From Paeniglutamicibacter psychrophenolicus (GTDB lineage Bacteria > Actinomycetota > Actinomycetes > Actinomycetales > Micrococcaceae), in the NCBI RefSeq assembly GCF_017876575.1, contig NZ_JAGIOE010000001.1, positions 1,054,001 to 1,118,000 on the forward strand: a stretch of 64,000 nucleotides of DNA, given 5' to 3'. Numbering within the stretch: position 1 is the stretch's first letter; each line of letters opens with the position of its first letter. Below are positions 5,122 to 21,317 of this stretch, one piece after another. The notes under the pieces are model-generated. The model was not told the DNA's origin and made no database searches. It was given only the letters and a program-made list of their open reading frames with translations. The translations under genes were made by a program, and so were the position numbers.

Positions 5122-5152
5122 ACCCTAGGAGAGTGCATCGATGCATGTCCAA
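5122..5152 (-). promoter_or_regulatory. Promoter of the gudD-paralogue operon
   Basis: On the minus strand: -35 TTGGAC (5152-5147), 19-nt spacer, -10 TAGGGT (5127-5122), about 35 nt before the start codon. The extended block TTGGACA-N-GCATC is shared with the promoters at 11233-11263 and 12268-12297, and with one mismatch at 21247-21277. Confidence 0.65.
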
Positions 5153-5171
5153 GCTAAAATTGGCAACCAAT

Positions 5172-5188
5172 CATTCAAGGAGTGAATC
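5172..5188. promoter_or_regulatory. LysR-type operator, T-N11-A, overlapping a ribosome binding site
   Basis: CATTCAAGGAGTGAATC is an inverted repeat (ATTCA-N5-TGAAT) holding T-N11-A, typical of LysR-family boxes. It ends one base before the lysR start codon and contains that gene's AAGGAG ribosome binding site. It lies exactly 19 nt upstream of the divergent -35 element. Confidence 0.65.
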
Positions 5189-5189
5189 G

Positions 5190-6125
5190 ATGTTTTCGTT
5201 GATCCAACTCGAATCCTTCGTGGCGGTGGCCGAGGAATTGCACTTCGGTGCGGCCGCGGACCGGCTGAACATGACGCAGCCTCCGTTGAGCCGACAGATC
5301 CAGCTCCTTGAGCGCGAACTCCAGGCGCAGCTGTTCATCCGCAACTCCCGGCGCGTGGAACTCACCGCCGCCGGACGGGTGCTGCTGCCCAACGCCAGGC
5401 GGATCCTGGACCTGAGTGCCAAGACCAGCCTTGAGGTTTCCCGGGTGGCCACGGGGGACGCCGGCACAGTGGTCATCGGCTACACGGCCGTTGCGGGCCA
5501 AGCGGTGCTGCCCGACCTGCTGGGCCAGGCCTCCAAGCACCTGCCGCATGTCACGCTGGTGCTGCGCGAGGCCGTGTCCGTCGAGCAGCTGGATGCCTTG
5601 AGCAAGGGCGCGATCGACATGGGAATCCTGCGCCCAATCGTCACCCGGCCCGGCGTGCTTACCCAGTTGATCAAGAAGGACCGGCTGGTGGTGGCGCTTC
5701 CGGAGGGCCACGACCTGGCAACGGGCAAGGGGGTTCTCATCAAGGAACTGGTGGGCCTGCCGCTGATGATGTACTCGACGGGCGAGGCACGGTATTTCTA
5801 CGACCTGGTCCTGCGGCTCTTCGACTCGGTCGGCGCCCGCCCGAACATCGCCCAGATTGCCAGTCAGATCCCGGCGCTTTTGGCGCTGGTTGCCGCCGGG
5901 CTCGGCGTCACGCTGGTGCCGGCCACGGCCATGGAATTCACCCCGCGCGGTGTGGTCTTCGAGGAGATCACCGGGCCCAACGGGCTGTCCAACTTGAACC
6001 ACTCGGATATGTACCTGGCTTGGGACGAATCCTCCACCAACCCCGCCGCGGAGATGCTCCGCAAGATCTACCTTGAATGGCTCAATGAGGAAGCATCGGA
6101 AACCAACGGACCAACGGCCTCGTAG
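5190..6125 (+). CDS. LysR-family regulator of sugar-acid genes
   Basis: A 311-residue LysR-type transcription regulator: N-terminal winged helix-turn-helix (ESFVAVAEELHFGAAADRLNMTQPP and LSRQIQLLERE in the first ~45 residues) and a periplasmic-binding-like effector domain. ATG 5190 is preferred to the ATG at 5133 because AAGGAG stands 7 nt before it and the MFSLIQLESF start is standard. It is divergent from the gudD paralogue and closely resembles the regulator at 11342-12229 (shared EELHFGxAAxRLNMTQPPLSRQIQ). The operator covering its ribosome binding site suggests autorepression together with activation of the divergent operon. The likely effector is glucarate or a pathway intermediate (inferred). 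Confidence 0.9.
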   Translation: MFSLIQLESFVAVAEELHFGAAADRLNMTQPPLSRQIQLLERELQAQLFIRNSRRVELTAAGRVLLPNARRILDLSAKTSLEVSRVATGDAGTVVIGYTAVAGQAVLPDLLGQASKHLPHVTLVLREAVSVEQLDALSKGAIDMGILRPIVTRPGVLTQLIKKDRLVVALPEGHDLATGKGVLIKELVGLPLMMYSTGEARYFYDLVLRLFDSVGARPNIAQIASQIPALLALVAAGLGVTLVPATAMEFTPRGVVFEEITGPNGLSNLNHSDMYLAWDESSTNPAAEMLRKIYLEWLNEEASETNGPTAS

Positions 6126-6139
6126 GTCAGGGCCGCGGT

Positions 6140-7081
6140 TCAGCCCAGGAAGAGCGTGATCACCAGCGTCACCGGCAGGGCCAGCAGCGTGCTGCACAGG
6201 ATGACCTCGCGCACCACCGTCGTTTCGAGCCTGAACTGCTGGGAGAAGAGCAGCACGTTCTGGGCCGTGGGCAGGGCGGCCATGATCACGACCCCAAGCA
6301 GGTCCGTGCCTTCCAGCTTGAACACCAGTGCGGCCAATGCCCAAGCCGCCAATGGCATGAAAAGCATCTTGAAAAAGGTGGCCAGGAAGACCTCGCCGCG
6401 CAACGCCTTGTCGGCCAACGGACGCTGCCCAAAAAGCGACATCCCGAAGGCCATCAGCAGCAGCGGGATCGAGGCCTGCCCCAGCATGTCGATGGGGATG
6501 TTGATGACTTCGGGCAGGTGCAGGTCGAAGGCCGCGAACAGGGCGCCAATGAACGTGGCGATGGTGACCGGGTTGGCGATGGACCGAAGGATGGTCTTGC
6601 CCAGCGGGGTCTTGTTTTCCTGGTTGCCGCTGGCCCTGGAGGCCAGGGCGAAGATGCACAGGTAGACCGGGGCGATCATCAGCAGCTGGGCGATGAGAAC
6701 CGAGACCACCGGGTTGGTGCTTCCCACGGCGTAGAGCGCCAGCGGCACACCGATGTTCCCGGCGTTGACGTAGCTGGTGGACATGGCCGCGCCGGGAAGC
6801 CGGGTTGCCGGGACCTTGAAGAACAACTTGGCGCCCAGTGCGTACAGAGAGCCGGTCAAGACGGCGGTGATCAGTGCAATCGGGGTGTACACGCCGATGA
6901 CGGCCCGCAAATCGGTCTCCGAGAGCAGCATGAACATCAGCGCCGGATTGGTTATGTAGTAGATCAGCGGTGTCAGCCCGGTGGCAATGGACTCGCGCTT
7001 GCGCGGCAACAACCTTGCGGTGACCAAACCAATGCCAATCAAGATCAGCACGATCGAGAACCCCTGGAGCACTCCTTGCAC
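6140..7081 (-). CDS. AEC-family (auxin efflux carrier type) membrane transporter
   Basis: A 313-residue integral membrane protein with about ten hydrophobic segments in the two-times-five arrangement of the AEC (malonate/malate/auxin carrier) family. The GNIGVPLALYAVG motif near residue 110 and the ALPTAQNVLLFSQQF motif near residue 280 are typical. Bacterial members move dicarboxylates or other small anions, so a role in uptake or efflux of an aldarate or its product fits the location between two glucarate dehydratase operons. It faces the lysR gene with a 14-nt gap (convergent). A hairpin between it and gudD suggests separate transcription, and a TGGTGAA-N6-TTCACCA palindrome lies upstream. 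Confidence 0.85.
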   Translation of the reverse strand: MQGVLQGFSIVLILIGIGLVTARLLPRKRESIATGLTPLIYYITNPALMFMLLSETDLRAVIGVYTPIALITAVLTGSLYALGAKLFFKVPATRLPGAAMSTSYVNAGNIGVPLALYAVGSTNPVVSVLIAQLLMIAPVYLCIFALASRASGNQENKTPLGKTILRSIANPVTIATFIGALFAAFDLHLPEVINIPIDMLGQASIPLLLMAFGMSLFGQRPLADKALRGEVFLATFFKMLFMPLAAWALAALVFKLEGTDLLGVVIMAALPTAQNVLLFSQQFRLETTVVREVILCSTLLALPVTLVITLFLG

Positions 7082-7113
7082 ATGGCCTCCCGAATAGGCG
7101 TTGGTGATCGTTG

Positions 7114-7215: not shown

Positions 7216-8547
7216 TCAGCGCACCAGCGCCGGGGACTTGGCGTCGAATTCCCAACCCGGAATCAGGTACTGCATCGAGGCGGCGTCGTCGCGCGAGCCC
7301 AGCCCGTGCTCCAGGTAGAGCTCGTGGGCCTCGGCCAAACGCGTGCGGTCCAGGGTGACGCCCAGGCCCGAACGCTCCGGGACCTTGATCTCGCCATTGC
7401 GGATCAGCAGCGGCTCCTCGGTCAATCCCTGGCCGTCCTGCCAGATCCAGTGCGTGTCCAGGGCCGTGATCTCGCCCGGTGCGGCGGCGCCGACCTGCGT
7501 GAACATGGCCAGGGAGATGTCGAAGTGGTTGTTCGAGTGCGAACCCCACGTCAGCCCGAACTCGTCGCAGAGCTGGGCCACGCGCACGGATCCGGCCATG
7601 GTCCAGAAGTGCGGATCGGCCAGCGGGATGTCCACGGCATTGGTGCGCACCGCGTGGGACATCTCGCGCCAGTCGGTGGCGATCATGTTGGTGGCGGTCG
7701 CCAGGCCAGTGGCCCGCCGGAACTCGGCCACCACCTCGCGCCCGGAGTACTTGCCCTCGGCGCCGCACGGGTCCTCGGCGTAGGCAACGACTCCCCGCAT
7801 CCTCTTGCCCAGGCGGATGGCGTCCTTGAGCAGCCAGCCGCCGTTGGGATCCAGGGTGATGCGGGCTTCGGGGAAGCGTTCCTTCAGGGCAATGACCGCA
7901 TCGACCTCGGCGTCGCCTTCCTGCACGCCGCCCTTGAGCTTGAAGTCCTTGAACCCGTAGCGCTTCTGCGCCGCCTCGGCCAGCCGGACGATGGCAGCCG
8001 GTGTCATGGCCTCTTCGCGGCGCACCTTCTCCCAGTCGTCGGCGCCGTTGGGCTCGCGCAGGTAGGGAAGATCGGTGTCATCCGGGTTGCCCACATAGAA
8101 GAGGTAGCCAAGCATCGGAACCGCATCGCGCTGCTGGCCCTCGCCCAGCAGCTCCGCCACCGGGACGCCGAGGAACTGGCCGTGCAGATCCAGCAGCGCC
8201 GACTCGATCGCGGTGACCGCGTGCACCGTGGTGCGCAGGTCAAAGGTCTGGGCCCCGCGCCCGCCGGAATCCCGGTCCGCGAACCTGGTGGCAACCGCAC
8301 GCAGCAGCGTGCGGAACCGTGCCACCGGGGCGCCGACGAGCAGTTCGGCGGCTTCCTCGATGGTGCGGCGGATGGGTTCCCCGCCCGGCACCTCGCCCAG
8401 GCCCGTGCGGCCCTCGGAATCGGTGATGATGGTGATGTTGCGGGTGAAGAACGGCCCGTGGGCCCCGGAGAGGTTCAGCAGCATCGAGTCGTGCCCGGCA
8501 ACCGGGACGACCTCGATGGAGGCGATGGTGGGTTGCGCTGCACTCAT
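7216..8547 (-). CDS. gudD: Glucarate dehydratase
   Basis: A 443-residue enolase-superfamily enzyme that dehydrates D-glucarate (and idarate) to 5-dehydro-4-deoxy-D-glucarate. All active-site blocks of GudD are visible: KDFKLKGG (KxK), [30 protein letters not shown] and the catalytic His in GSHSNNHFD. The start is ATG 8547 ([13 protein letters not shown]), which overlaps the stop of the upstream aldehyde dehydrogenase by four bases (ATGA), so translation is coupled. It is the third gene of the kdgD-aldh-gudD operon, which encodes the whole route from glucarate to 2-oxoglutarate. Family length is ~440. Confidence 0.93.
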
Positions 8548-10151
8548 GCTTGTTCTCCGGCGTTCTTCAGGGTGCCGTCGATGCGGCGGGTCAGCTTCCA
8601 CGGGTTGGACTGCTGCAACGGGGCCGGCAGCAGGGAATCGGGGATGTTCTGGTAGGCGACCGGGCGCAGGAAGCGCTCGATGGCCAGCGTGCCGACCGAG
8701 GTGGTGCGGGTGTCCGAGGTTGCGGGGAACGGTCCGCCGTGGACCATGGCGTGTCCGACCTCGACCCCGGTGGGCCAGCCGTTGACCAGGATGCGCCCGG
8801 CCTTGCGCTCCAGGATGGGCAGCACCGCGGCGACGGCCTCGTGGTCCGAATCGTTCAGCTGCAAGGTGGCGGTGAGCTGGCCCTCAAGCTTGGACAGGGC
8901 GGTGGCCAGGTCCGCGGCATCCGTGTAGCGGATGACCAGGGAGGCGGCGCCGAAGATTTCCTCGTGCAGCACCGGGTTGCCCAGCAACTGCGCAACCCCG
9001 GTGGAGAAGATGGACGGGGCCGGTGCGTTTTCGGTTTCGCCCTTGTTGCCCTGCGCCAGGAGCTCCACGCCGGGCTGGGAGCCGAGGTCTTGAACGCCCT
9101 GGACCCAGGAGTTGTAGATGCCCTGGGTCAGCATGGTCTGTCCGGCCGTGGTGGCGGCCTCGGTGCGCAGGGCCGCGGCGAAGGTGTCGCCTTCCTCGCC
9201 GGTCGGGACGAACACCAGTCCGGGGGCCGTGCAGAGCTGGCCGCTGGAGCCGACAACCGAACCCAGGTAGGCCTTGGCATGGCCGGCCGCATCGTCGGAA
9301 AGCGCTCCGGCGAAGAAGATGACCGGGTTGATGGAGCTCATCTCGGCGTAGACCGGGATCGGTTCCGGGCGTGCGGCGGCGGTGGCCATCAGCGCGGTGC
9401 CGCCACCGCGGGAACCGGTGAAGCCCACGGCCTTGATGCGCGGGTCGGAAACCAGCGCCTGGCCGATGCTGGCGCCCGGTCCGTAGACGAGGGAGAAGAT
9501 GCCCGGGTTCAGGTTCGCATCCGAGATGGCCGCGGTGATGGCCCGGCCCACGATCTCGCTGGTGCCCGGGTGGGCATTGTGGGCCTTGAAGACCACGGGG
9601 CACCCGGCGGCCAGGGCCGAGGCCGTGTCCCCGCCGGCGGTGGAGAATGCCAGGGGGAAGTTGGACGCACCAAACACCGCTACCGGGCCCACCGGGATCT
9701 TGCGCTGGCGGATGTCCACCCGCGGCATCGGCGCGCGCTCCGGCAATGCCGGATCGATCCGCACCCCGTGGTGGTCGCCCTGGCGAACCACCTGCGCGAA
9801 GATGCGCAACTGGTTGCAGGTGCGCCCGCGCTCGCCGACCAACCGTGCCTCGGGAAGCCCGGTCTCCGCCATGGCCCTTTGCACCAGCTCGGTTCCCACT
9901 GCCTCGATGTTCCCGGCAATGGATTCAAGGAACCGTGCGTGGGTTTCCGGGTCAAGGGAGCGGAAGGAGGCAAAGGCGTCCTCGGCCGCGGCGGTGGCCA
10001 GCTCCAACTGCGAGGCGTCGATCAGGCTGTATGCCGGGTCGAGGCCCTGGTTGGTGGCGGGGTTGAAGCCCCGTACCTCGGCCCCGTTGCCGGGGGTGTT
10101 GATCCCGGCCAGGATGGACTGGCCGGTGAGTTGCTGGGTATCCGTGGACAT
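8544..10151 (-). CDS. 2,5-dioxovalerate (2-oxoglutarate semialdehyde) dehydrogenase, glucarate branch
   Basis: A 535-residue NAD(P)+ aldehyde dehydrogenase of the ketoglutarate-semialdehyde dehydrogenase subgroup. It oxidises 2-oxoglutarate semialdehyde, the KdgD product, to 2-oxoglutarate. Visible features: [21 protein letters not shown] (cofactor domain and the subgroup's characteristic GGDTASA), GFTGSRGGG (nucleotide loop), general base Glu in YAEMSSINP and catalytic Cys in [11 protein letters not shown]. It lies between kdgD and gudD in one operon, with a 63-nt gap after kdgD and an ATGA overlap with gudD. A paralogue (60907-62370) serves the hydroxyproline branch. The N-terminus is ~30 residues longer than in the paralogue. 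Confidence 0.9.
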
Positions 10152-10214: not shown

Positions 10215-11153
10215 TTAGACGGCCGCGGCGGCCGGCATCAGTCCGGCCTTCTGGATCAGTGCGCCCAGGTCGGCCAGGTCGGCCTCGGTGAGGTCCTGCA
10301 GCGGCGGGCGCACCGGGCCGGCGTCGCGGCCGATGGCCTTCAGGCCGCCCTTGACGATGGAGACGCCGTAGCCCGCCACTCGGTCGCGGATGTCCAGGTA
10401 CGGCAGCACGAAGCGCTTGAGCTTCTCGGTGACCGCCGCGTGGTCCTGGTTGCGGACGTCCTTGTAGAAGTCCAGGGCGAACTCGGGGACGAAGTTGTAC
10501 ATGGCCGAGGAGTAGGTGCTCATGCCCAGCTGCAGCAGCGGCAGCGCGAAGGTCTCGGCGGTGGGCAGGCCGCCCAGGTAGAAGAGGCGGTCGCCGTTCT
10601 TGGTGTAGACGCGGGTCAGGTGCTCGATGTCGCCGGTGGCGTCCTTGAAGCCGATGAAGTTCTCGTGGGTGTCGGCCAGGCGTGCCACGGTGTCGGCCGA
10701 GTAGATGGCGTTGGCGCGGTTGTAGACGATGACGCCGGTGGAGGTCGAGGCGCAGACGGCCGAGGCGTGGTTGAACAGGCCCTCCTGGTCGCATTCGGTC
10801 AGGTAGGGCGGCAGCAGCAGCAGGCCCTGCGCGCCGGCGGCCTCGGAGTCCTGGGCGTTGAGGATGGCCTGCTTGGTGGAACCTCCGGCGGAACCGAGCA
10901 CCGGCACGCGGTCGCCGGCTTCCTCGACTGCCATGCGCACCACGCGGGCGGATTCCTCGGGGGTGAGGGTGAAGCCCTCGCCGGTGCCGCCGGCGGCGAA
11001 GAGGCCGGCGACGCCGAAGCTGGACTGCCAGTCGAGGTGGCGGCGGTAGGCGGCTTCGTCGATTTCGAGGTTCGCGTCGAAGGCGGTCACCGGGAAGGAG
11101 AGCAGCCCGTCCTTGAGCTTGGCGGCAAGTTCGGCGGGGGTGTACGTGGCCAT
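10215..11153 (-). CDS. kdgD: 5-dehydro-4-deoxyglucarate dehydratase
   Basis: A 312-residue DapA-superfamily TIM-barrel enzyme that dehydrates and decarboxylates 5-dehydro-4-deoxy-D-glucarate to 2-oxoglutarate semialdehyde and CO2. Visible features: the GGTGEGFTLT phosphate-type loop near residue 50, the conserved Tyr in VYNRANA, and the Schiff-base Lys in GFKDATGD near residue 188. Start ATG 11153 (MATYTPAELAAKLKDG) fits the family; the ATG at 11249 would lie inside the promoter. It is the first gene of the glucarate operon. The promoter and LysR box upstream match those of tctC and the gudD paralogue. Confidence 0.92.
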   Translation of the reverse strand: MATYTPAELAAKLKDGLLSFPVTAFDANLEIDEAAYRRHLDWQSSFGVAGLFAAGGTGEGFTLTPEESARVVRMAVEEAGDRVPVLGSAGGSTKQAILNAQDSEAAGAQGLLLLPPYLTECDQEGLFNHASAVCASTSTGVIVYNRANAIYSADTVARLADTHENFIGFKDATGDIEHLTRVYTKNGDRLFYLGGLPTAETFALPLLQLGMSTYSSAMYNFVPEFALDFYKDVRNQDHAAVTEKLKRFVLPYLDIRDRVAGYGVSIVKGGLKAIGRDAGPVRPPLQDLTEADLADLGALIQKAGLMPAAAAV

Positions 11154-11232: not shown

Positions 11233-11263
11233 AGCCTAGGGAGCACCAACGATGCCTGTCCAA
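11233..11263 (-). promoter_or_regulatory. Promoter of the kdgD operon
   Basis: Minus strand: -35 TTGGAC (11263-11258), 19-nt spacer containing GCATC, -10 TAGGCT (11238-11233). It shares the TTGGACA-N-GCATC block and spacing with three other promoters in the window. Confidence 0.65.
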
Positions 11264-11282: not shown

Positions 11283-11299
11283 GATACCCGTCGGGTATC
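11283..11299. promoter_or_regulatory. LysR-type operator, perfect palindrome
   Basis: GATACCCGTCGGGTATC is a perfect 8-1-8 palindrome containing T-N11-A (T11285, A11297). It lies exactly 19 nt upstream of the kdgD -35. The one-base centre cannot form an RNA hairpin loop, so a protein site is more likely than a terminator. Confidence 0.7.
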
Positions 11300-11341: not shown

Positions 11342-12229
11342 TTAGGCCTGCATGGAGTCACGCACGATCTGCACCAATTTGGTCAGTGCGGGATTCTTGT
11401 AGTCCCGATTCCAGATTGCGTGCAGCTCGACCGCGTCAGGGGTGGTGTCCTCGAGCCGGTGGTAGCTGACCCCGTCAACGCCGAGCAGCTTGGCGCTTTC
11501 GGGGACAAAGGCGATGCCGCGCCCCGCGGCCACCAGCGTGATCATGGTCAGGATCTGGCTGACCGAGTGGACCACGTTCTGGTGCTCGATATCGATCTCG
11601 CGCACAACAAGGTCATAAAAATAGCGGGCCTTGGTTGCCGAGTGCATGATTAATGGTTCGCCGGCCAGGTCTTCGACCATGAGCTCGCGCGGCAACAGGT
11701 CAAGCCGGTGCCCCGTGGGCACCGCAACGTAGAGGGACTCGGAAAAGAGCATTTGCGATTCAAAGGTTTTTTCGTCGAAGGGCGGTCGGGCCAGGCCCAG
11801 GTCGATGTCCCCGTCCTGAAGCGCCGTGATCTGTTCCCCGGTCACCATCTCGAAGAGCTCGAGGTGGACATTGGGAAGCCGCGTCGAGATTTCCGAGAGC
11901 AGGGGACCGAGCAGGCTGAACCCCGAGGCCGCGGTGAAACCGATGCGCAGCTCCCCGAATTGCCCCGAGGCAATCCGGCGCGCGTTCAGCGGTGCGCGCT
12001 CGGCGGAGATCACCAGGCGCCGGGCGTCGATGAGAAAAGCGTGCCCGGCCGCGGTGAGGGACACCTTGCGGTTGTCTCGTTCCAGCAGCTCGACGCCCAC
12101 GCTGCGCTCGAGCTTCTGGATTTGCCGGCTCAGCGGGGGTTGGGTCATATTCAGCCGCTCGGCGGCGCGGCCGAAATGCAGCTCTTCGGCCACGGCCACA
12201 AAGCTTCGTGCTTGGTCCAATGTGAACAA
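11342..12229 (-). CDS. LysR-family regulator, glucarate/tct locus
   Basis: A 295-residue LysR-type regulator with an N-terminal helix-turn-helix (RSFVAVAEELHFGRAAERLNM, then TQPPLSRQIQKLER) and a C-terminal effector domain. I prefer the TTG start at 12229 (LFTLDQARSF, aligned with MFSLIQLESF of the paralogue at 5190) because GAAAGG stands six bases upstream; ATG 12259 is an alternative that adds ten residues. It is divergent from tctC and lies upstream of the kdgD operon on the same strand. A LysR box (12232-12248) covers its ribosome binding site, so it probably represses itself and activates tctCBA and kdgD. The inducer is unknown, most likely glucarate or a related diacid. Confidence 0.88.
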   Translation of the reverse strand: MFTLDQARSFVAVAEELHFGRAAERLNMTQPPLSRQIQKLERSVGVELLERDNRKVSLTAAGHAFLIDARRLVISAERAPLNARRIASGQFGELRIGFTAASGFSLLGPLLSEISTRLPNVHLELFEMVTGEQITALQDGDIDLGLARPPFDEKTFESQMLFSESLYVAVPTGHRLDLLPRELMVEDLAGEPLIMHSATKARYFYDLVVREIDIEHQNVVHSVSQILTMITLVAAGRGIAFVPESAKLLGVDGVSYHRLEDTTPDAVELHAIWNRDYKNPALTKLVQIVRDSMQA

Positions 12230-12231: not shown

Positions 12232-12248
12232 GATACCTTTCGGGAATC
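12232..12248. promoter_or_regulatory. LysR-type operator between lysR and tctC
   Basis: GATACCTTTCGGGAATC is an imperfect palindrome with T-N11-A (T12234, A12246), nearly identical in its arms to the site at 11283-11299. It lies exactly 19 nt before the tctC -35, and on the other strand it holds the SD (GAAAGG) of the lysR gene. Confidence 0.65.
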
Positions 12249-12267: not shown

Positions 12268-12297
12268 TTGGACAAGCATCATAACTATTTCTAGGCT
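12268..12297 (+). promoter_or_regulatory. Promoter of tctCBA-usp
   Basis: Plus strand: -35 TTGGAC (12268-12273), 18-nt spacer with GCATC, -10 TAGGCT (12292-12297), 84 nt before the tctC ATG. It belongs to the same four-member promoter set. Confidence 0.65.
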
Positions 12298-12381: not shown

Positions 12382-13383
12382 ATGAAGAAGCAATTCACAC
12401 GCCGCGCAATGCTGTCCATGGCCGCTGCCACCGCGGCTCTTTCGCTTGCCGCCTGCGGCGGCAACGTCGGTGGCGGTGCCGCCGAGGGCGCCACCTTCCC
12501 CAGCGGCCCGGTGACCCTCACCGTCGGCCAGGCCCCGGGTGGTTCCACCGACCTGATCGCCCGCGCGGCGGCCGAGGGCATGGCGGAAAAGCTCGGCGTG
12601 GCCATGCCGGTGGTCAACAAGCCCGGCGCCAACGGTGCCCTGGCCACCCAGGAAGTCGCAGCCATGAAGGCGGACGGCCAGAACCTGATCCTGCTCAACG
12701 CCTCGCTGATCACCATCACCCCGCTGGCGGTCTCCGCCTCCGAGGCCGTCACCCTGGACGAGCTCGATGTCATCGGTGGCCTGTCCCAGGACGACTACGT
12801 CATGGTTGCCAGCACCAAGTCGGGCGTCAAATCCGTGGCGGATTTGAAGAAGAGCGAATCGAAGCTTTCCTTCGGCACCACCGGCGTCGGCACCGGGTCG
12901 CAGCTGGCCCAGGCCTTGCTGCTGGCCCAGGCCGACATCAAGGGAACCATCGTTCCCTTCGACTCCGGCTCCCCGGCACTGACCGCCGTCATGGGCAACC
13001 AGGTTCAGGTTTCCACCGTCCAGCTCGGCGAGGCCAAGCCGCAGATCGATGCCGGCACAGTGGTCCCGCTGGTCGTCTTCTCCTCCGAGCGCAACAGCTT
13101 CCTGCCGGATGTCCCCACCGCCGTTGAAGAAGGCTACGACGTCCCGGTCTCGCAGTACCGCGCCATTGCCGCACCCAAGGGCCTGAGCGCCGAGACCAAG
13201 ACCGCCCTGGTCGACGCACTCAAGGCAGCAACTGCCCGCGACTCCTACAAGTCCTTCAACGAGTCCAACATGCTCAGCCCGAAGGAAATCTCCGGTGAGG
13301 AAGTTGTCACCGAATGGAACGAGCTGGCCGCCAAGTACAAGAAGCTGACCGAGCAGTACAACATCTCGCTGGCTTCCAAGTAA
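12382..13383 (+). CDS. tctC: TctC: tripartite tricarboxylate transporter binding lipoprotein
   Basis: A 333-residue extracytoplasmic solute receptor of the TTT family. It has a signal peptide with an early RR pair and a lipobox LAAC (Cys near residue 28), followed by a Gly-rich linker. The TVGQAPGGSTDLIARAAAEG segment is the ligand-contacting loop typical of Bug/TctC receptors. The protein would capture a carboxylate outside the membrane and hand it to TctAB. The ligand is probably a sugar diacid such as glucarate rather than citrate, judged from the shared promoter type with kdgD. It is the first gene of tctC-tctB-tctA-usp; a hairpin after the stop may raise its level relative to the membrane subunits. 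Confidence 0.92.
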   Translation: MKKQFTRRAMLSMAAATAALSLAACGGNVGGGAAEGATFPSGPVTLTVGQAPGGSTDLIARAAAEGMAEKLGVAMPVVNKPGANGALATQEVAAMKADGQNLILLNASLITITPLAVSASEAVTLDELDVIGGLSQDDYVMVASTKSGVKSVADLKKSESKLSFGTTGVGTGSQLAQALLLAQADIKGTIVPFDSGSPALTAVMGNQVQVSTVQLGEAKPQIDAGTVVPLVVFSSERNSFLPDVPTAVEEGYDVPVSQYRAIAAPKGLSAETKTALVDALKAATARDSYKSFNESNMLSPKEISGEEVVTEWNELAAKYKKLTEQYNISLASK

Positions 13384-13407
13384 CACCTCGCCCGTTCCCA
13401 ATCCCAG

Positions 13408-13426
13408 GCGCCACCGCAGGTGGCGC
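13408..13426 (+). promoter_or_regulatory. Intercistronic hairpin between tctC and tctB
   Basis: GCGCCACC-GCA-GGTGGCGC forms an 8-bp stem with a 3-nt loop 24 nt after the tctC stop. Such structures commonly protect the binding-protein mRNA or partly end transcription, giving more receptor than permease. Confidence 0.55.
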
Positions 13427-13451
13427 ACGCTAGACCCAAAGGAAGCACGCT

Positions 13452-13997
13452 ATGCGAGCCGATAAAGCGCCGCACGTCGAAGACGCCCCGGAGATGGACG
13501 AAGAGATCCTGACCCCCGAGCAGCTCGCTGCTGCTTGGGCCGCCGAAGCGCCGGAACCGGCCGGGCCAGTGGCCAACCTGGTCTCCTCATTGGTGGCCAT
13601 GGCCCTGGGCATCGCAGGGTTGCTGCTCTCGCTGAAACTGGGATTGGGAACGCCGGCCGAACCACGGCCGGGCATGTGGCCCTTCATTGTCAGCCTCGTC
13701 GTTGCCGTGCTGTCGGTGGTCCAGGTCGTCATCGGCCGCACCGGCGGCAAGGACGGGGAAAAGTTCTCGTCCTACTCCTGGTACGCCGGAATCGGTTTTG
13801 CCACGCTCGTGGGCATGGTGCTGCTCATGCCGGTGGTCGGCTTCGAGATCCCGTCGCTGCTGTTGTGCTTCATCTGGATGCGGTGGCTCGGTGGCGAGCG
13901 CTGGCGCTCGGCCACCATGTATTCGATCCTGATTGTTGCAGCGTTCTACGCGATCTTCATTGCCGCACTCGGAACCACCATCCCCCGACTTTTCTAA
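13452..13997 (+). CDS. tctB: TctB: small membrane subunit of the TTT transporter
   Basis: A 181-residue protein with an acidic N-terminal tail (~35 residues) followed by four hydrophobic segments, the TctB pattern. The RPGMWPF motif between the first and second segments is typical of the family. It pairs with TctA to form the secondary carboxylate transporter fed by TctC. It lies 68 nt after tctC and 23 nt before tctA, with an AAAGGAAG ribosome binding site just before the start. TctB sequences diverge widely, so the call leans on position and topology as well as the motif. Confidence 0.87.
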   Translation: MRADKAPHVEDAPEMDEEILTPEQLAAAWAAEAPEPAGPVANLVSSLVAMALGIAGLLLSLKLGLGTPAEPRPGMWPFIVSLVVAVLSVVQVVIGRTGGKDGEKFSSYSWYAGIGFATLVGMVLLMPVVGFEIPSLLLCFIWMRWLGGERWRSATMYSILIVAAFYAIFIAALGTTIPRLF

Positions 13998-14020
13998 GTC
14001 AAGACCAAAGGTAAAACGGC

Positions 14021-15550
14021 ATGGATTTCTTCGGCCCGGTCTTGGACGGCTTTGGTGTTGTCCTGGACCCAACCAATCTTCTGTACTGCCTGCTCGGCGT
14101 CGCCATCGGCATGCTGATCGGCGTGCTGCCGGGCCTGGGCCCGGCGGCAACCATCGCCATCCTGCTTCCCCTGACCTACGGGGTTGAGCCGGTCACCGCG
14201 ATCATCATGCTCGCGGGCATCTTCTACGGAGCCCAGTACGGCGGCACCATCACCTCGGTGTTGCTGCGCATTCCAGGCGAGGCCAGTTCCGTGGTGACCG
14301 TCTTTGACGGCTACGTCCTGGCCAAGCAGGGACGGGCGGGCACCGCCCTGGGAATCGCCGCCATCGGTTCCTTCATCGGCGGCACCGTGGGCATCATCGG
14401 GTTGACCTTCCTGGCCCCGGTGGTCGCAAGCTTCGCACTGGACTTCGGCCCGCCGGAGTACACGGCACTGGCCCTGCTGGGCATCTTGCTGGTCGCCACC
14501 ATTTCCGGCGGATCAAAGATCAAGGCCTTGATTGCCGCGGCCTTCGGATTGTTCCTGGCCACGGTGGGACGCGACATCTTCACCGGTGCCGAGCGCTTCA
14601 CCTTCGGGAACCTCTCGATGGCAGACGGCATTGATTTCGTGCCCATCGCCATGGGCCTGTTCGGTGTGGGAGAGATCCTCTACAACCTCGAGGAACGGCA
14701 CCGTGCGGCCTCCGCGCCCGCCACGGTCGCCAATGTCTGGCCCTCGCGCAAGGACCTCAAGCAGGCCTCGGGCGCCATCGGACGCGGCTCGGTGCTCGGA
14801 TTCTTCCTGGGCATCCTGCCCGGCGGCGGAGCCACCATCGCCTCGCTGGCCGCCTACGCCGTGGAAAAGAAGCGCGCCAAGGATCCCTCGCGCTTCGGCA
14901 AGGGCGCCATCGAGGGCGTGGCCGGACCGGAAACCGCGAACAACGCGGCGGCCACCAGCTCCTTCATCCCGCTGCTGACCCTGGGCATTCCCGCCAACGC
15001 CACCATGGCCATCATCTTCGGTGCGCTGCTGATCCAGGGCGTGACCCCGGGCCCGCAGCTGATCACCGAGCACCCGGAGCTCTTCTGGGGCGTGGTGAAC
15101 TCGATGTACATCGGAAACATCCTGCTGCTGATCATGTCGATCCCGCTGGTGGGACTGTTCGTGAAGATCCTGCGGATCCGTGCAGCGATCCTTGCACCGA
15201 TCACGGCGCTGATCACCATGCTCGGCGCCTACACGATCCGAAACTCGATGTTCGACGTCATGCTTGTGGTGCTCTTCGGTGCACTGGGCTACCTGATGAA
15301 GAAGTTCGGCTTCGAGCCCGGCCCGCTGGTGCTGGCATTCGTGCTGGGAAGCCTTCTCGAGTCCTCGCTGCGCCGCTCGCTGCTGGTGCTGGAGGGCGAT
15401 CCGACCGGGTTCTTCACCCGGCCGATCTCCGCCACGCTGCTGGTGACATTCGTGATCGTGGCCGTCTGGCCGATGGTCAAGACAGTTCTCGACAAACGCA
15501 AGAAGGCAAACGCCGTCTTGTCCGACCCCAAGGTTAAGGAAAAGGTATGA
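14021..15550 (+). CDS. tctA: TctA: large membrane subunit of the TTT transporter
   Basis: A 509-residue integral membrane protein of about 11-12 helices. It carries the TctA signatures GVLPGLGPAATIAILLPLTY (about residues 28-47) and its inverted-repeat counterpart GILPGGGATIASLAAYA (about residue 265), which form the two substrate-binding hairpins. YGAQYGGTITSVLLRIPGE is also conserved. It moves the carboxylate supplied by TctC, driven by the ion gradient. The stop overlaps the start of the universal stress protein gene (ATGA). Length equals the family norm of ~500. Confidence 0.94.
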   Translation: MDFFGPVLDGFGVVLDPTNLLYCLLGVAIGMLIGVLPGLGPAATIAILLPLTYGVEPVTAIIMLAGIFYGAQYGGTITSVLLRIPGEASSVVTVFDGYVLAKQGRAGTALGIAAIGSFIGGTVGIIGLTFLAPVVASFALDFGPPEYTALALLGILLVATISGGSKIKALIAAAFGLFLATVGRDIFTGAERFTFGNLSMADGIDFVPIAMGLFGVGEILYNLEERHRAASAPATVANVWPSRKDLKQASGAIGRGSVLGFFLGILPGGGATIASLAAYAVEKKRAKDPSRFGKGAIEGVAGPETANNAAATSSFIPLLTLGIPANATMAIIFGALLIQGVTPGPQLITEHPELFWGVVNSMYIGNILLLIMSIPLVGLFVKILRIRAAILAPITALITMLGAYTIRNSMFDVMLVVLFGALGYLMKKFGFEPGPLVLAFVLGSLLESSLRRSLLVLEGDPTGFFTRPISATLLVTFVIVAVWPMVKTVLDKRKKANAVLSDPKVKEKV

Positions 15551-15945
15551 GCATCCTAGTTGGATACGTTCCGACCAAGGTCGGTGAGGCCGCGGTGCGG
15601 GCCGCGATCAGCGAGGCCAAGCTTCGCAACGAGGAGCTGTTGATCGTGAACTCGGTGCGCGAGGGCGCGCTGGTCGACAAGTCGGTGGCGAGCGCCGAGG
15701 ACATCGAGCGCATCAAGCAGTCCACCGTGGATGCGGGCATCAAGGCGCGGATCCTGGAATCCATCCACCGCGACGACCTCGCCGAGGAAATCCTGGACCT
15801 GGCCGAGAAGCATGACGTCTCGCTGATCGTCATCGGGTTGCGCCAGCGCTCCCAGGTGGGCAAGTTCATCATGGGCTCCCACGCCCAGCGCATCCTGCTG
15901 CAGGCCGAGCACCCGGTGCTGGCCGTGAAGGCGGACCAGGTCTAG
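15547..15945 (+). CDS. Universal stress protein (UspA family) in the tct operon
   Basis: A 132-residue single-domain UspA protein, translationally coupled to tctA by a four-base overlap. The C-terminal VIGLRQRSQVGKFIMGSHAQ fits the ATP-binding version of the family (G-2x-R/G-9x-G-S/T pattern), so it probably binds ATP. Usp proteins recur at the end of TTT operons, where they may tune transporter activity to energy state; this role is inferred. A perfect 18-bp terminator stem follows. Confidence 0.9.
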   Translation: MSILVGYVPTKVGEAAVRAAISEAKLRNEELLIVNSVREGALVDKSVASAEDIERIKQSTVDAGIKARILESIHRDDLAEEILDLAEKHDVSLIVIGLRQRSQVGKFIMGSHAQRILLQAEHPVLAVKADQV

Positions 15946-16347: not shown

Positions 16348-17052
16348 TTAGTTGCCGGCGGTAGTCATTCCGGCCTCGACCTCGAGCCGGTGCAGCGAGT
16401 TCGCCAGATGCACCCGCATCGCCGCGGCTGCGGCCATGGCGTTGCCCGAGGCGATGGCATTGCGGATGGTGAGGTGTTCCTCCGCGACCTGTTCCAGACG
16501 GGGGAGCAGGACCGAATCCGTTGAATCGAGTCGTTGGCGGGGCATGGCAATCATCGCCGGACCGAGGTGGTGCACCGCATCAAGGAAGTAGGGGTTCCCG
16601 CTTCCGGCCGCAACGGCGGAATGGAACTCGAAGTCGCAGCTCATGGAACGCGAGGCGTTGGTTCCGGCCTGCCGGAATGCCGCAAGCGCCGCATCGAGGG
16701 CGGGCAGGGTGTCGGCGCTCCCCGCAACCGCTGCTGCGGCCGCAGCCTCGGACTCGAGTCCCATGCGGAACTCGAGCAGTTGCCGGCGTTCGGCCAGGGT
16801 CCTGGGGACCCGCGCCTGTGCACCGGTTTCCGGGGCCGGGGGAGTCAGGGCAAAGCTGCCGGCACCGCGGCGCGTGTGGACCAACCCTTCGGCCTGCAGC
16901 CGGGTCACGGCCTCACGCACCACGGTGCGGGAGACGCCGTGTTCGGCGATCAGGGCATTTTCGCTCGGGAGCTTGTCTCCCGGGGCGATTGCTCCGGAGC
17001 TGATCTGCTCGCGCAGGTGCTCAATCAGGCCGGTCGTCAGATTGGGTTTCAT
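16348..17052 (-). CDS. GntR/FadR-family regulator next to the aldarate dehydratase
   Basis: A 234-residue regulator with an N-terminal winged helix (LREQISSGAIAPGDKLPSEN, then VSRTVVREAVTRLQAEGLV in the first 65 residues) and an all-helical FCD effector domain with metal-binding His residues (for example CDFEFHSAVA). Members such as DgoR and ExuR-like proteins sense sugar acids. It follows the dehydratase gene by 36 nt in one operon. Two operators of the form CTTRT-N3-AYAAG lie upstream of that operon. It most likely represses the operon until galactarate, talarate or a product is present (inferred). Confidence 0.9.
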   Translation of the reverse strand: MKPNLTTGLIEHLREQISSGAIAPGDKLPSENALIAEHGVSRTVVREAVTRLQAEGLVHTRRGAGSFALTPPAPETGAQARVPRTLAERRQLLEFRMGLESEAAAAAAVAGSADTLPALDAALAAFRQAGTNASRSMSCDFEFHSAVAAGSGNPYFLDAVHHLGPAMIAMPRQRLDSTDSVLLPRLEQVAEEHLTIRNAIASGNAMAAAAAMRVHLANSLHRLEVEAGMTTAGN

Positions 17053-17088: not shown

Positions 17089-18222
17089 TTAAGCTCGGCC
17101 GAACTCGACGGTGTCGGTCGTCCAGGCGCGGGCCTGGTCGCTGAAGGTGAAGCCGAGTCCGGGGCGGTTCGGGACGATCATGCGCCCGTCCTTGGTCTCG
17201 AGACGCTCGTTGAACAGCGGGTCGAGCCAGTCGAAGTGCTCCACCCATGGTTCGCGCGGGTAGGCGGCGGCGAGGTGCAGGTGGATCTCCATGGCGAAGT
17301 GTGGCGCCAGGTCCAGGCCTGCCTGGTCCGCAAGAGTGGCCAGGCGCAGGAACTGGGTGATGCCGCCGATGCGCGGGGCGTCGGGCTGGATGATGTCGCA
17401 GGCCCGGGTGGCGATCAGGCGCTCGTGCTCGGCGACCGATGCGAGCATCTCGCCGGTGGCGATCGGGGTGTCCAGCGCCGCGGCGAGTGCCGCGTGTCCC
17501 TCGGCGTCGTAGGCGTCGAGCGGTTCCTCGATCCAAACCAGGTCGAATTCCTCGAGCTTGCGGCCCATGCGCAGCGCGGTGGCACGGTCCCACTGCTGGT
17601 TGGCATCCACCATCAACGGCACGTTGGGGCCGATGTGTTCGCGAACCGCAGCGACGCGGCGCAGGTCCTCGGAGGAATCGGGCAGACCGACCTTGATCTT
17701 GATGCCGCCGATTCCTTCCTCGATGGACTGGCTGGCACGGTCCTTGACCTCGGAGATGGAGGCATTGAGGAAGCCGCCGGAGGTGTTGTAGGTGCGCACC
17801 GAGTCCCGGTGGGATCCGAGGAACTTGGCCAGCGGCAGGCCCGCGCGCTTCGACTTCAGGTCGTAGAGGGCAATGTCGAGGGCAGCGAGTGCCTGGGTGG
17901 CGACACCCGAGCGGCCCACCGAGGCGCCGGCCCACAGGAGCTTGGTATAGAGCTTGGCAATGTCGTTGGGGTCCTCGCCGATCATGGTCTCGGCGACTTC
18001 CTTGGCGTGGGCGAACTGTGCCGGCCCGCCGGCGCGCTTCGAGTAGGAGAACCCGACACCTTCGTGGCCCTGCTCGGTCTTGATCTCCGCGAAGAGGAAG
18101 ACGACCTCGGTCATCGGCTTTTGGCGGCCGGTGAAGACCTTGGCATCGGAGATCGGGGTGGCCAGGGGCAAGCGCGCGGTGGACAGCTTGACGTGGCGAA
18201 TGGCATCGGGGGTGTAGCTCAT
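17089..18222 (-). CDS. L-talarate/galactarate dehydratase-like enzyme
   Basis: A 377-residue mandelate-racemase-type enolase-superfamily protein. Visible: KIKVG (KxK acid/base Lys pair, about residue 180), metal ligands Asp in MVDANQQWD, Glu in IEEPLD and Glu in ATGEMLAS, the Asp of IIQPDAPRIGG, and the His of LAPHFAMEIH. This pattern and the VEHFDWLDPLF C-terminal block match galactarate/talarate dehydratases, giving 5-dehydro-4-deoxyglucarate, which KdgD can use. Start ATG 18222 (MSYTPDAIRH) is chosen over 18273, which would lie on the operator. Other acid-sugar dehydratases of the same subgroup cannot be excluded. Confidence 0.82.
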   Translation of the reverse strand: MSYTPDAIRHVKLSTARLPLATPISDAKVFTGRQKPMTEVVFLFAEIKTEQGHEGVGFSYSKRAGGPAQFAHAKEVAETMIGEDPNDIAKLYTKLLWAGASVGRSGVATQALAALDIALYDLKSKRAGLPLAKFLGSHRDSVRTYNTSGGFLNASISEVKDRASQSIEEGIGGIKIKVGLPDSSEDLRRVAAVREHIGPNVPLMVDANQQWDRATALRMGRKLEEFDLVWIEEPLDAYDAEGHAALAAALDTPIATGEMLASVAEHERLIATRACDIIQPDAPRIGGITQFLRLATLADQAGLDLAPHFAMEIHLHLAAAYPREPWVEHFDWLDPLFNERLETKDGRMIVPNRPGLGFTFSDQARAWTTDTVEFGRA

Positions 18223-18272
18223 GGCGGGTCTGTGCTCCTGGGGGAGGGAAAGTGGGATTGCATCGGTGAACA

Positions 18273-18308
18273 CAACTTATCGTATAAGTTGATAGCTTGT
18301 TACACAAG
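18273..18308. promoter_or_regulatory. Tandem GntR-type operators before the dehydratase operon
   Basis: CAACTTATCGTATAAGTTG (18273-18291, perfect 8-3-8) and CTTGTTACACAAG (18296-18308, perfect 5-3-5) share the pattern CTT(A/G)T-N3-A(T/C)AAG. Their centres are 20 bp apart, i.e. two helical turns on the same face. They match the TNGTNNNACNA style of FadR-subfamily regulators and lie 51-86 nt upstream of the dehydratase start. Confidence 0.7.
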
Positions 18309-18446: not shown

Positions 18447-18971
18447 ATGCGTATCGGCGCAGCCGCCAAGGAAACGTTCTTCGCACCAGAAGCTCCGAAA
18501 GCCGGAGAGATCTACAGCTTCATTGAAGCTCATGCAGCGCGCAGGGGTATTGCTCCTTCGCCCAAGTTCTTCCTTTCTGGAGGAGAATCTGGCGACCAAG
18601 TCGAAATCCCCCATGAGGTCTACGAGGTTCTCGTTAAGGCCGTAGATGCGATGCGACGTGGTTTGGCGGTCACCATCACGCCAAGCTCGCTCACGCTCAC
18701 CACTCAACAGGCAGCCGAATTGCTTGGGATAACCCGACCGACTCTCGTCAAGATTCTTGATTCCGGAGGAATGCCCTTCGAGAAGCCTGGAACGCATTGT
18801 CGAGTTCAACTTGAGGATGTTCTGGCATACAAGGAAACACGTAAATACGAGCAGTATGCGGCGCTTGCGTCCATGGGTACCGTGGATGACGAATCCCCTG
18901 CCGACGCCATTGAACGGATGAAGCAAGCCCGCACGGAAGCGGCACGCCGCCGCCATCGGTCCACGTCCTGA
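18447..18971 (+). CDS. Helix-turn-helix antitoxin (excisionase-like fold), orphaned
   Basis: A 174-residue DNA-binding protein. The C-terminal half has an excisionase/MerR-like helix-turn-helix (LTTQQAAELLGITRPTLVKI, then GGMPFEKPGTHCRVQLEDVLAY), the architecture of antitoxins paired with PIN-domain RNases in actinobacteria. ATG 18447 (MRIGAAAK) follows the ribosome binding site region AAGAAGTGAG; ATG 18390 is less likely. The expected PIN toxin begins 13 nt downstream but survives for only 15 codons (18985-19032). GC content is lower than in neighbouring genes, suggesting separate ancestry. The protein may still regulate its own promoter or be free to decay. Confidence 0.8.
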   Translation: MRIGAAAKETFFAPEAPKAGEIYSFIEAHAARRGIAPSPKFFLSGGESGDQVEIPHEVYEVLVKAVDAMRRGLAVTITPSSLTLTTQQAAELLGITRPTLVKILDSGGMPFEKPGTHCRVQLEDVLAYKETRKYEQYAALASMGTVDDESPADAIERMKQARTEAARRRHRSTS

Positions 18972-19249: not shown

Positions 19250-19752
19250 TGCAACACCCCTTCATTGTCGGTTTCAGTTCTGGGCAGCGAGCTGCAGCGG
19301 ACCGAAGACTTCTTTGGCCTGCACTTTTTCGATCCGGTTCCGGCCTCAATATTGATCGAGTTGGGAATCGGAAATCAGCCAGGCGGACCGAACTGGCCGA
19401 GACAGGCAATACGTGGGCCGAAGTCCTGGGAAAGACTGCGGTTGTAGTCAATGGAGCACCCGGATTCGCTTCTTCTCGTCTCAAAGTGGCCAGTGCGCTG
19501 GAAGCCACGCGCATGCTTGAGGAGGGGGCCAGTGCTCAAGATATCGCCAACGCCATGGTATTCGGCGACAAGCACTCCACAGGGTCTTTGCGCACCAGCG
19601 GACATCGTGGGCCGTGACGTGCAATTGGGCGTGGTCGAATATTCGAAGGAAACGCTCGGTGAGAGGTTCTCCCCACCCGGGATCCTCCAAGGGATGGTCA
19701 GCAGCGGGGAACTGGGCAGGAAACCGTCAAGGGGTTCTGCAACTGGGAATAA
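19250..19752 (+). pseudogene. 3-hydroxyacyl-CoA dehydrogenase remnant, frameshifted
   Basis: Three frames read in turn give a coherent protein. CNTPSLSVSVLGS followed by RTEDFFGLHFFDPVPASILIE (from 19250, the end of the NAD domain with the HFFxPxP motif) is in one frame. ELAETGNTWAEVLGKTAVVVN and GAPGFASSRL (the NDAPGF motif with Asp replaced by Gly) is in the next. DIVGRDVQLGVVEYSKETLGE through GELGRK is back in the first frame, and KGFCNWE plus stop at 19752 is in the third. This is the C-terminal two thirds of a PaaH/FadB-type 3-hydroxybutyryl-CoA dehydrogenase. The N-terminal NAD-binding half is absent and at least three frameshifts exist. Confidence 0.85.
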
Positions 19753-19833
19753 CCCGGCGGGTACATATCAGGATCACTTTGGGTCGGTTGGATCGACGTA
19801 GGGTTCGTGGATTTTTGCGCGAAAGAGCTTCCG

Positions 19834-20202: not shown

Positions 20203-20232
20203 GTGGCCCGCCCGGTTCACCGAGCGGGCCAC
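20203..20232 (-). terminator. Terminator after a 2-hydroxyacid dehydrogenase gene
   Basis: GTGGCCCGC (20203-20211) pairs with GCGGGCCAC (20224-20232) around a 12-nt loop, 15 nt beyond the stop codon on the minus strand. Confidence 0.65.
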
Positions 20233-20247
20233 GGGCAATAGGGCTGC

Positions 20248-21240
20248 CTACGAGACCGGCGTGATCAGTTCACCCGAATCGACGTAGCTGCGCAAGTTGT
20301 CCAGCACCAGCGCTGCCATGTCGGCGCGCGTCTCGTGCGTGCCGCTGCCCAGGTGCGGCAGCAGGACCACGTTCTCCAGCGCGAAGAGCTCTTCGGGGGC
20401 GTGGGGCTCGTTGACGAACACGTCAAGCCCGGCACCGGCGATGGTGCCGTTCTGCAGGGCCGCGACCAGGGCCTGCTCGTCAACGACGCTGCCGCGGGCA
20501 ATGTTGATCAAGAAGCCCTTCGGGCCGATCGCTTCCAGCACAGTTGCATCGACAAGTCCGGCGGAGGCCGGCCCGCCCGCAGCGGCCACGACCAGCACAT
20601 CGGTGGCCTCAGCCAGTGCGGCGGCAGAGGGGTGATATGTGTACGGGCTGCCGCTGATTTCCGAGCGGTTGTGATAGTGGATTTCGCAGCCGAAGGCCTC
20701 AAGGCGCTTGGCGATTGCCGCACCGATGCGGCCCAGGCCCAGGATGCCCACGCGCTTGGAACTGGCGCGGGTGGCCAGCGGGAAGTTCGCGCCCGTGGCC
20801 CAGGTGCCGGCGCGCACGAAGCGCTCGGCGGCGCCCAGCGAGCGCAGGGTGTTCAGGTAGAGGCCCAGTGCGGTGTCCGCGACGCAGTCGGTGAGCACGT
20901 CCGGGGTGTTGCTGATGGGGATGTTGCGCTCGGCAGCCTGTGCGACGTCGGAGGCGTCGTAGCCGACACCGAAGTTCACGATGGCTTCGAGGTTCGGCAG
21001 GCGCTTCATGAGTTCGGTGTCCACGCCGATCTTCCCGGAGCACACCGCGACGCGGATCGCCTCGCCGTGCTCGTTCAGGAATTGGTCGCGGGCGTCCCCG
21101 GCATCGGGCAGGACCAGCGAGTCGTAGTCGTCCACCAGTGCCTGCGCGACCGTTGGGTTGACCGGGCCGACGCGCACGATGGCGTTCCCGGAAATGGGGC
21201 TGGGATCGCGCCGCGTGATGGCGCTGGTATCTGTTGACAT
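20248..21240 (-). CDS. D-2-hydroxyacid dehydrogenase, LysR-box controlled
   Basis: A 330-residue NAD(P)-dependent 2-hydroxyacid dehydrogenase resembling glyoxylate/hydroxypyruvate reductases. Visible: VGILGLGRIGAAIAKRLEAFG (Rossmann GxGxxG), catalytic Arg in NIARGSVVDE, Glu in NEPHAPEEL and His in LLPHLGSGTHET. Start ATG 21240 (MSTDTSAITRR) is preferred over 21291, which lies inside the promoter. It is monocistronic: terminator downstream, own promoter upstream. That promoter has the same box-19 nt-TTGGAC layout as the glucarate promoters, so it probably reduces a C2-C3 product of sugar-acid breakdown (inferred). It is divergent from the dipeptide ABC operon. Confidence 0.87.
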   Translation of the reverse strand: MSTDTSAITRRDPSPISGNAIVRVGPVNPTVAQALVDDYDSLVLPDAGDARDQFLNEHGEAIRVAVCSGKIGVDTELMKRLPNLEAIVNFGVGYDASDVAQAAERNIPISNTPDVLTDCVADTALGLYLNTLRSLGAAERFVRAGTWATGANFPLATRASSKRVGILGLGRIGAAIAKRLEAFGCEIHYHNRSEISGSPYTYHPSAAALAEATDVLVVAAAGGPASAGLVDATVLEAIGPKGFLINIARGSVVDEQALVAALQNGTIAGAGLDVFVNEPHAPEELFALENVVLLPHLGSGTHETRADMAALVLDNLRSYVDSGELITPVS

Positions 21241-21246
21241 ACCTGA

Positions 21247-21277
21247 ATCGTAGGAAGCGGCAAGGATGCGCGTCCAA
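21247..21277 (-). promoter_or_regulatory. Promoter of the 2-hydroxyacid dehydrogenase gene
   Basis: Minus strand: -35 TTGGAC (21277-21272), 19-nt spacer beginning GCGCATC, -10 TACGAT (21252-21247), only 6 nt before the ATG. It is the fourth member of the shared promoter set. The short leader means a leaderless or near-leaderless transcript. Confidence 0.6.
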
Positions 21278-21292
21278 CACGGAGATTGCATG

Positions 21293-21317
21293 GATCAATA
21301 CCGTTGAGGCATTGATC
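21293..21317. promoter_or_regulatory. LysR-type operator, 25-bp palindrome
   Basis: Arms GATCAATACC (21293-21302) and GGCATTGATC (21308-21317) flank a 5-nt centre with one mismatch in ten pairs. It contains T-N11-A (T21299, A21311), and its core 21297-21313 lies exactly 19 nt from the -35, as in the three other sites. Confidence 0.65.

Follow-up and report, generated by a model that had tools for sequence, protein, structure and literature searches.

Four promoters within a 64,000-nucleotide (nt) stretch of the Paeniglutamicibacter psychrophenolicus genome (contig NZ_JAGIOE010000001.1, positions 1,054,001 to 1,118,000; here called the window) share one architecture and are very probably the operators of a BenM/CatM-like pair of LysR-type regulators, LysR1 and LysR2, that controls the catabolism of D-glucarate and D-galactarate. 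At all four promoters a 17-bp AT-N11-AT dyad (T-N11-A) is followed after exactly 19 nt by TTGGACNNGCATC and then by a -10 region of the type TAnnnT. An earlier note on this DNA had proposed that the four promoters have a single LysR-type architecture with TTGGAC 19 nt behind the box, and all elements were present at all four. Site 1 leads to gudD2-hadhB, site 2 to kdgD-aldehyde dehydrogenase-gudD-transporter, site 3 to the genes of a tripartite tricarboxylate-type transporter (TTT) and a universal stress protein (tctCBA-usp), and site 4 to the 2-hydroxyacid dehydrogenase gene hadh4. The regulon is best read as covering the uptake of glucarate and galactarate as well as their catabolism.

As in LysR-type operators, T-N11-A lies within the dyad and upstream of the -35 region at each site. 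The gap between box and -35 region was 19 nt at sites 1 to 4, and the -35 and -10 regions were 19, 19, 18 and 19 nt apart, respectively. The dyad of site 2 is perfect, with 8 of 8 arm pairs matching, and 5 of 8 pairs match at each of the other sites. For site 4 the earlier note had given arms at 21293-21317. As a box these outer arms would leave only 15 nt before the -35 region, but the distance of 19 nt held once the 17-mer in register with the other sites was taken. If transcription starts 6 to 8 nt past the -10 region, as predicted, the centre of the box lies near -66, the usual position of LysR recognition sites.

The combination of box and core stood out from the rest of the genome. At offset 19 the AT-N11-AT dyad was present at 4 of the 4 TTGGACNNGCATC sites, with a background of 0.12% of window positions; among the 35 offsets tried (5 to 39) it otherwise occurred only at 6 and 32, at one of the four sites each. 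Exact TTGGACNNGCATC was found five times in the 4.9-Mb genome; four copies belong to these promoters, and the remaining one (L005) stands without a box. The earlier note had suggested a matrix scan of the genome and its relatives. This was run with sequence models, which recovered the four sites and located sites in relatives. The sequence-only model R1, built from 38 aligned sites with the four sites of the window among them, gave E values from 4e-18 to 3e-13 for these four and one marginal match at 0.02. Model R2, built exclusively from other genera (34 sites), recovered the four at 1.4e-16 (site 2), 1.8e-9 (site 4), 3.0e-9 and 6.4e-9; since its sites were picked with a matrix that included those of the window, it is independent in its letters and not in the first choice of sites. 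R2 found the same marginal fifth match as R1 (E 0.011) and no other strong site.

Conservation in relatives and across the class

The spacing was examined with a free-spacing test, in which the best box and the best core were found independently in regions upstream of kdgD, tctC, gudD2 and hadh4 homologues. The distance was 19 in 50 of 57 upstream regions; these stretches were chosen largely for holding sites, so the result is the concentration at a single value and not a frequency across genomes. The same distance was found in 22 of 24 regions from the genus of the window, none of whose sites had entered the training of those matrices. The seven deviating regions were those of hadh4 in genomes G004, G040, G067, G015 and G023, the second gudD2 of G009, and gudD2 of G088. 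In the hadh4 region of G023 a different core outscored the expected one, and a full site with spacing 19 was nonetheless recorded there in another search. Before hadh4 of G040 and the second gudD2 of G009, the box, the 19 nt and TTGGAC remain recognisable, though GCATC is missing. The earlier note had named a lack of conserved boxes or of the 19-nt spacing in relatives as an outcome that would speak against it, and the opposite was found.

The sample of relatives comprised 119 genomes, the window's own included, and was searched with strict filters by which weak sites may be lost. Sites at E 0.01 or better were present in 26 of the 119. A LysR2 homologue of at least 52% identity occurred in 24 genomes, 23 of which had sites. 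All 11 genomes with a LysR1 homologue of at least 60% identity carried a site at the lysR1 start. Homologues of hadh4 (at least 60%) were present in 14 genomes, with a strong site in 11 and a weak partial one in G040. A LysR2 search of named genomes returned only three close loci, all from Paeniglutamicibacter; LysR2 of the window is 99% identical to its counterpart in P. psychrophenolicus, which places the DNA in this genus. The second site of G111 (L161:3585), for which the sequence alone was compared, is nearly identical to the G095 site.

Model R2 matched 39 of 394 genomes of the class, again counting the window's own. Of 27 loci inspected (L173-L199), 26 hold homologues of the window's genes for sugar-acid enzymes or transporters; at one of the 26, L192, this is the aldehyde dehydrogenase only. 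At the remaining locus, L193, a LysR homologue (46%) and a 28% dehydrogenase were all that was found. L178, one of the 27, had supplied training material for R2. Two outward-facing sites about 1 kb apart, as around lysR2 in the window, were present in 18 of the 39 genomes, the window's own among them.

Several observations weigh against a LysR regulon of this kind. Genome G026 has a LysR2 homologue (62%) and no model match; by eye, its lysR2 locus keeps the box, the 19 nt and GCATC with a degenerate -35 region. The hadh4 genes of G004 and G067 have no site. Conversely, sites occur in G020 and G040 although no LysR2 homologue reached E 1e-40 there, and no convincing downstream gene was found at the locus of the G020 site (L137:9012). 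In G084, which has a site, the LysR2 homologue is only 46% identical; a homologue of the same identity in G086 is unaccompanied by a site at E 0.01. Site 1 of the window has the most divergent box and carries TTGC in place of ATGC. Cores with one or two mismatches allowed were not above chance in comparison with shuffled sequence (23 found, 22.6 expected), and genome-wide the core with at most one mismatch occurred at 64 places, compared with 82 in a reversed control. Finally, the sites for both models were first chosen with a pattern or matrix that held those of the window, and the conservation of columns is therefore partly selected.

Regulators and probable target genes

The positions of the sites, the regulators and their presumptive target genes are given in Table 1. 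Both LysR proteins matched PF00126 (helix-turn-helix) and PF03466 (substrate-binding) above cut-off. They are 43% identical, with nearly identical helix-turn-helix regions in which the stretch NMTQPPLSRQIQ, presumably the recognition helix, is unchanged. In a midpoint-rooted tree of 42 chosen proteins from 40 loci, labelled by best match, the LysR1 rows formed one group (100/100). The LysR2-labelled rows lay on the other side of that branch, and the rooting placed three distant ones beside LysR1. Seven solved sequences matched LysR2 at E 1e-25 or better: an unnamed LysR regulator (7w06), four BenM, one CatM and 1ixc.

By position, site 1 would belong to LysR1 and sites 2 and 3 to LysR2. Genome G043 has a site before gudD2 and G021 a site before hadh4, both without a LysR1 orthologue; another regulator, most simply LysR2, would serve these genes there, and site 4 is for this reason most likely a LysR2 site. 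The comparative data thus support the earlier claim that one type of regulator acts on the four promoters, with the qualification that two paralogous LysR proteins could share the sites.

Table 1. Probable operator sites, regulators and neighbouring genes (positions in the window)
Feature	Position	Strand	Remarks
Site 1 recognition box GATTCACTCCTTGAATG, T-N11-A	5172..5188	-	Upstream of gudD2; overlaps AAGGAG, likely Shine-Dalgarno sequence of lysR1
Site 1 core promoter	5122..5152	-	-35 TTGGAC 5152-5147; GCATC 5144-5140; -10 TAGGGT 5127-5122
Site 2 recognition box GATACCCGACGGGTATC, perfect dyad	11283..11299	-	Upstream of kdgD, downstream of lysR2 stop
Site 2 core promoter	11233..11263	-	-35 11263-11258; GCATC 11255-11251; -10 TAGGCT 11238-11233
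Site 3 recognition box GATACCTTTCGGGAATC	12232..12248	+	Upstream of tctC; overlaps likely Shine-Dalgarno sequence of lysR2
Site 3 core promoter	12268..12297	+	-35 12268-12273; GCATC 12276-12280; -10 TAGGCT 12292-12297
Site 4 recognition box AATGCCTCAACGGTATT	21297..21313	-	In-register 17-mer, upstream of hadh4
Site 4 core promoter	21247..21277	-	-35 21277-21272; GCATC 21269-21265; -10 TACGAT 21252-21247
lysR1, LysR-type regulator	5190..6125	+	Likely ATG at 5190
lysR2, LysR-type regulator	11342..12229	-	TTG at 12229 as likely start; outward-facing sites on both sides
gudD2, enolase-superfamily dehydratase related to glucarate dehydratase	3759..5087	-	TIGR03247 264.7 bits, cut-off 828.7
hadhB, 2-hydroxyacid-dehydrogenase-like	2767..3840	-	Downstream of gudD2; mechanical start of the open reading frame; NCBIfam matches all below cut-off
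kdgD	10215..11153	-	TIGR03249 379.8 bits, above cut-off 373.95
Aldehyde dehydrogenase, probable 2-oxoglutarate semialdehyde dehydrogenase	8544..10151	-	Role from context; displayed NCBIfam matches below cut-offs
gudD, glucarate dehydratase	7216..8601	-	TIGR03247 784.4 bits, slightly under cut-off 828.7
Auxin-efflux-carrier-type membrane transporter	6140..7081	-	Last in kdgD gene row; PF03547 above cut-off
tctC-tctB-tctA-usp, tripartite tricarboxylate-type transporter and universal stress protein	12382..15945	+	Pfam above cut-off: TctB, TctA, Usp
GntR/FCD regulator	16348..17052	-	Adjoins galactarate dehydratase
L-talarate/galactarate dehydratase	17089..18273	-	NF047820 690.6 bits, cut-off 500
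hadh4, 2-hydroxyacid dehydrogenase	20248..21240	-	ATG 21240, 6 nt past -10

The oxidative glucarate/galactarate pathway is represented in the window by KdgD and L-talarate/galactarate dehydratase, both above cut-off, by GudD, slightly below, and by the aldehyde dehydrogenase, assigned from context. The earlier note had spoken of a glucarate regulon; glucarate stood, and the set looks like one for glucarate plus galactarate. The score of GudD2 is far below the cut-off for glucarate dehydratase, which makes its substrate uncertain. The gene is paired with hadhB, and its substrate may be another sugar diacid. The name tctC rests on the earlier note and on position, as NCBIfam gave no match. The mechanical starts of the gudD2 and hadh4 open reading frames lie upstream of the -10 regions and were set aside in favour of 5087 and 21240. 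With its ATG 6 nt past the -10 region, hadh4 likely yields a leaderless mRNA; in the eight relatives compared, the start lies 6-7 nt after the -10 region.

Membership of the TTT transporter and of the 2-hydroxyacid dehydrogenase in the regulon, both claimed before, is supported by comparative genomics. The description of the dehydrogenase as free-standing applies to this genome and probably not to its ancestry. In G002, G007, G013 and G021, hadh4 and the galactarate dehydratase gene are about 40-250 bp apart (stop-to-stop frames) with gntR next. The two genes are near neighbours also in G031 and G051, compared with a distance of about 2 kb in the window. This adjacency ties the dehydrogenase to the galactarate arm.

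Other transporters lie behind the same kind of site in some relatives. In G043 it precedes a major facilitator superfamily (MFS) transporter whose best NCBIfam match, a D-galactonate transporter, is below cut-off, and the MFS transporter behind the site of G051 is similar by eye. An operon for an NMT1/SsuA-like ATP-binding cassette (ABC) transporter stands behind the site in G095 and behind a weaker one in G003. At L129:5665-10216 and L157:12171-16719 such an operon follows a site of this kind, where the stretch showed no tct genes; a transporter swap under one operator is possible. These two operons also contain what we take to be a peptidase-like gene.

The weak fifth match in the genome lies outside the window at 1017609-1017652 on the minus strand (L167:7653) and consists of GATGCCTTTATGGCATC, 19 nt and CTAGAC. 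It precedes the gene of an enolase-superfamily dehydratase, followed by one for glycerate kinase, and a similar site stands before a homologue in G007. Between galactarate dehydratase and hadh4 the window has an open reading frame at 18390-18971 with the look of a DNA-binding domain, and at about 19250-19760 what appear to be decayed remnants of a gene that we presume encoded a 3-hydroxyacyl-CoA dehydrogenase.

Proposed mechanism and alternatives

A survey of half-sites yielded 100 distinct and 67 non-redundant sites at threshold 25 (102 and 69 at threshold 22). In the 67 non-redundant sites ATGC at positions 23-26 and GCAT at 45-48 were conserved; these columns were in the picking matrix and thus partly selected. 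Site 1 of the window lacks ATGC at 23-26, and site 2 has ATAC there. In the mechanism that we propose from these sequences, a LysR tetramer would anchor one dimer on the 17-bp dyad ATnC-N7-GnAT as its recognition site. The other dimer would contact the proximal half-sites around TTGGAC, namely an ATGC lying 21 bp downstream from the first arm and a GCAT within the spacer of the -35 and -10 regions. Without inducer this proximal dimer would lie over the -35 region; with a sugar diacid or an intermediate of the pathway bound, it would move upstream and RNA polymerase could fire. LysR2 would drive the kdgD gene row and tctCBA-usp, which lie to either side of its gene, and probably also hadh4, together with the galactarate dehydratase gene behind hadh4 in relatives. 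Its paralogue LysR1, whose DNA-binding helices are nearly the same, would drive gudD2-hadhB. The likely start codons of the lysR genes lie 1-2 nt past the ends of boxes 1 and 3, which cover the likely Shine-Dalgarno sequences of these genes, so each LysR protein should repress itself.

A more far-reaching version, which we regard as rather unlikely, would treat the element as a composite switch of rigid geometry, about 49 bp long and retained throughout the class, at which the mobile dimer could dock in either of two places separated by one helical turn. ATGC at 23-26 and GCAT at 45-48 would each lie 7 nt from a tetrad at 34-37. Docking downstream would cover the -35 region and docking upstream would free it, so that the spacer between the -35 and -10 regions would itself encode the off state; the box over the regulator's own Shine-Dalgarno sequence would add tight self-limitation. 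This version is weakened by the tetrad, which is mostly GGCT and a poor match to a half-site.

Two insulated regulons, with LysR1 acting only on site 1 and LysR2 on sites 2 to 4, would be a narrower form of the proposed LysR-pair control and not exclusive of it. The common architecture would then have been inherited through duplication of an ancestral lysR gene with its operator and would not reflect shared control. We consider this quite possible, if short of probable. The boxes of the site-1 kind at lysR1 are of a type of their own, GATTCACTCCTTG-AT in most, and both the single LysR1 group in the tree and the 43% identity of the proteins fit such a separation; the identical helix-turn-helix stretch of the two proteins and the site before gudD2 in G043 speak for overlap instead. 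It appears improbable that only the dyad belongs to LysR and that a second protein, such as the GntR/FCD regulator, has its operator in the TTGGACNNGCATC part. GCATC within the spacer is unusual for an activator contact, and gntR adjoins galactarate dehydratase in several relatives, but the rigid spacing of 19 nt speaks for a single complex, GCAT is itself a match to the LysR half-site, and the sites of G095 and G111 have no gntR homologue within the 20 kb examined.

Common sigma-A-type promoters with coincidental dyads would agree with the chance-level frequency of cores with one or two mismatches. Among 28 checked of the 64 near-match places (30 fetched), none had a box beyond the four sites. 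The signal is accordingly that of the exact core together with the box, and the core alone carries no claim. Chance or promoter composition was rejected as an explanation, and we give it next to no probability: R2 recovered the four sites, the free-spacing test returned 19, the dyad was concentrated at offset 19, the gene content was consistent across the class, and the full element is conserved at orthologous genes in other genera. The argument of the earlier note that so constant a spacing is unlikely to arise by chance was borne out by the offset count, the models and the relatives.

Relation to known systems and significance

Passages in two publications describe similar operators. One gives AkACC-N5-GGTAT as the consensus for regulators of the LysR type in (chloro)catechol metabolism (PMC6449761); the other gives ATAC-N7-GTAT as the BenM/CatM box, with binding at sites 1 and 3 of that system causing repression and binding at sites 1 and 2 activation (PMC6628147). 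The box of our site 2 fits both sequences exactly, those of sites 3 and 4 have one change each, and site 1 diverges. Further likenesses are T-N11-A, the divergent orientation of lysR and target, the similar paralogues with overlapping motifs, and the nearest solved sequences, which include BenM, CatM and 1ixc. In contrast to BenM and CatM, the genes concerned here are sugar-diacid genes of actinobacteria and not aromatic ones, and the operators flank lysR2 on both sides. The conserved GCAT between the -35 and -10 regions and the invariant 19-nt phase may be further differences. Because the targets are not ben or cat genes, the regulators were not filed as BenM or CatM. Their best NCBIfam match was the AlsR type (NF045775), with 225 and 231 bits far below the cut-off of 430, and no acetoin genes were seen among the targets.

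For Halomonas, a passage of PMC5507952 (cited in PMC5812351) predicts a glucarate/galactarate operon with a tripartite tricarboxylate transporter, TctABC, and one local regulator, GguR, so that membership of a TTT transporter has a precedent. GguR is a GntR-family factor in that account, whereas the regulators here are of the LysR type. The present promoters and genes very probably form a LysR regulon for the use of sugar diacids that is well conserved and belongs to a kind already known; a search of the open-licence PMC literature, with subscription journals and regulon databases outside it, found no description of a LysR regulon for glucarate in actinobacteria.

As relatives keep the promoter plan, genes under such control can be recognised from the DNA alone: the rule of box, 19 nt and TTGGACNNGCATC led to homologues of sugar-diacid enzymes or transporters at all but one of the inspected class-wide loci. 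The rule places unrelated transporters (TTT, MFS and NMT1-like ABC) next to a single pathway, along with several dehydratases and 2-hydroxyacid dehydrogenases whose substrates are uncertain. It also provides a natural set of near-identical promoters on which the dimer-shift model of LysR activation becomes testable.

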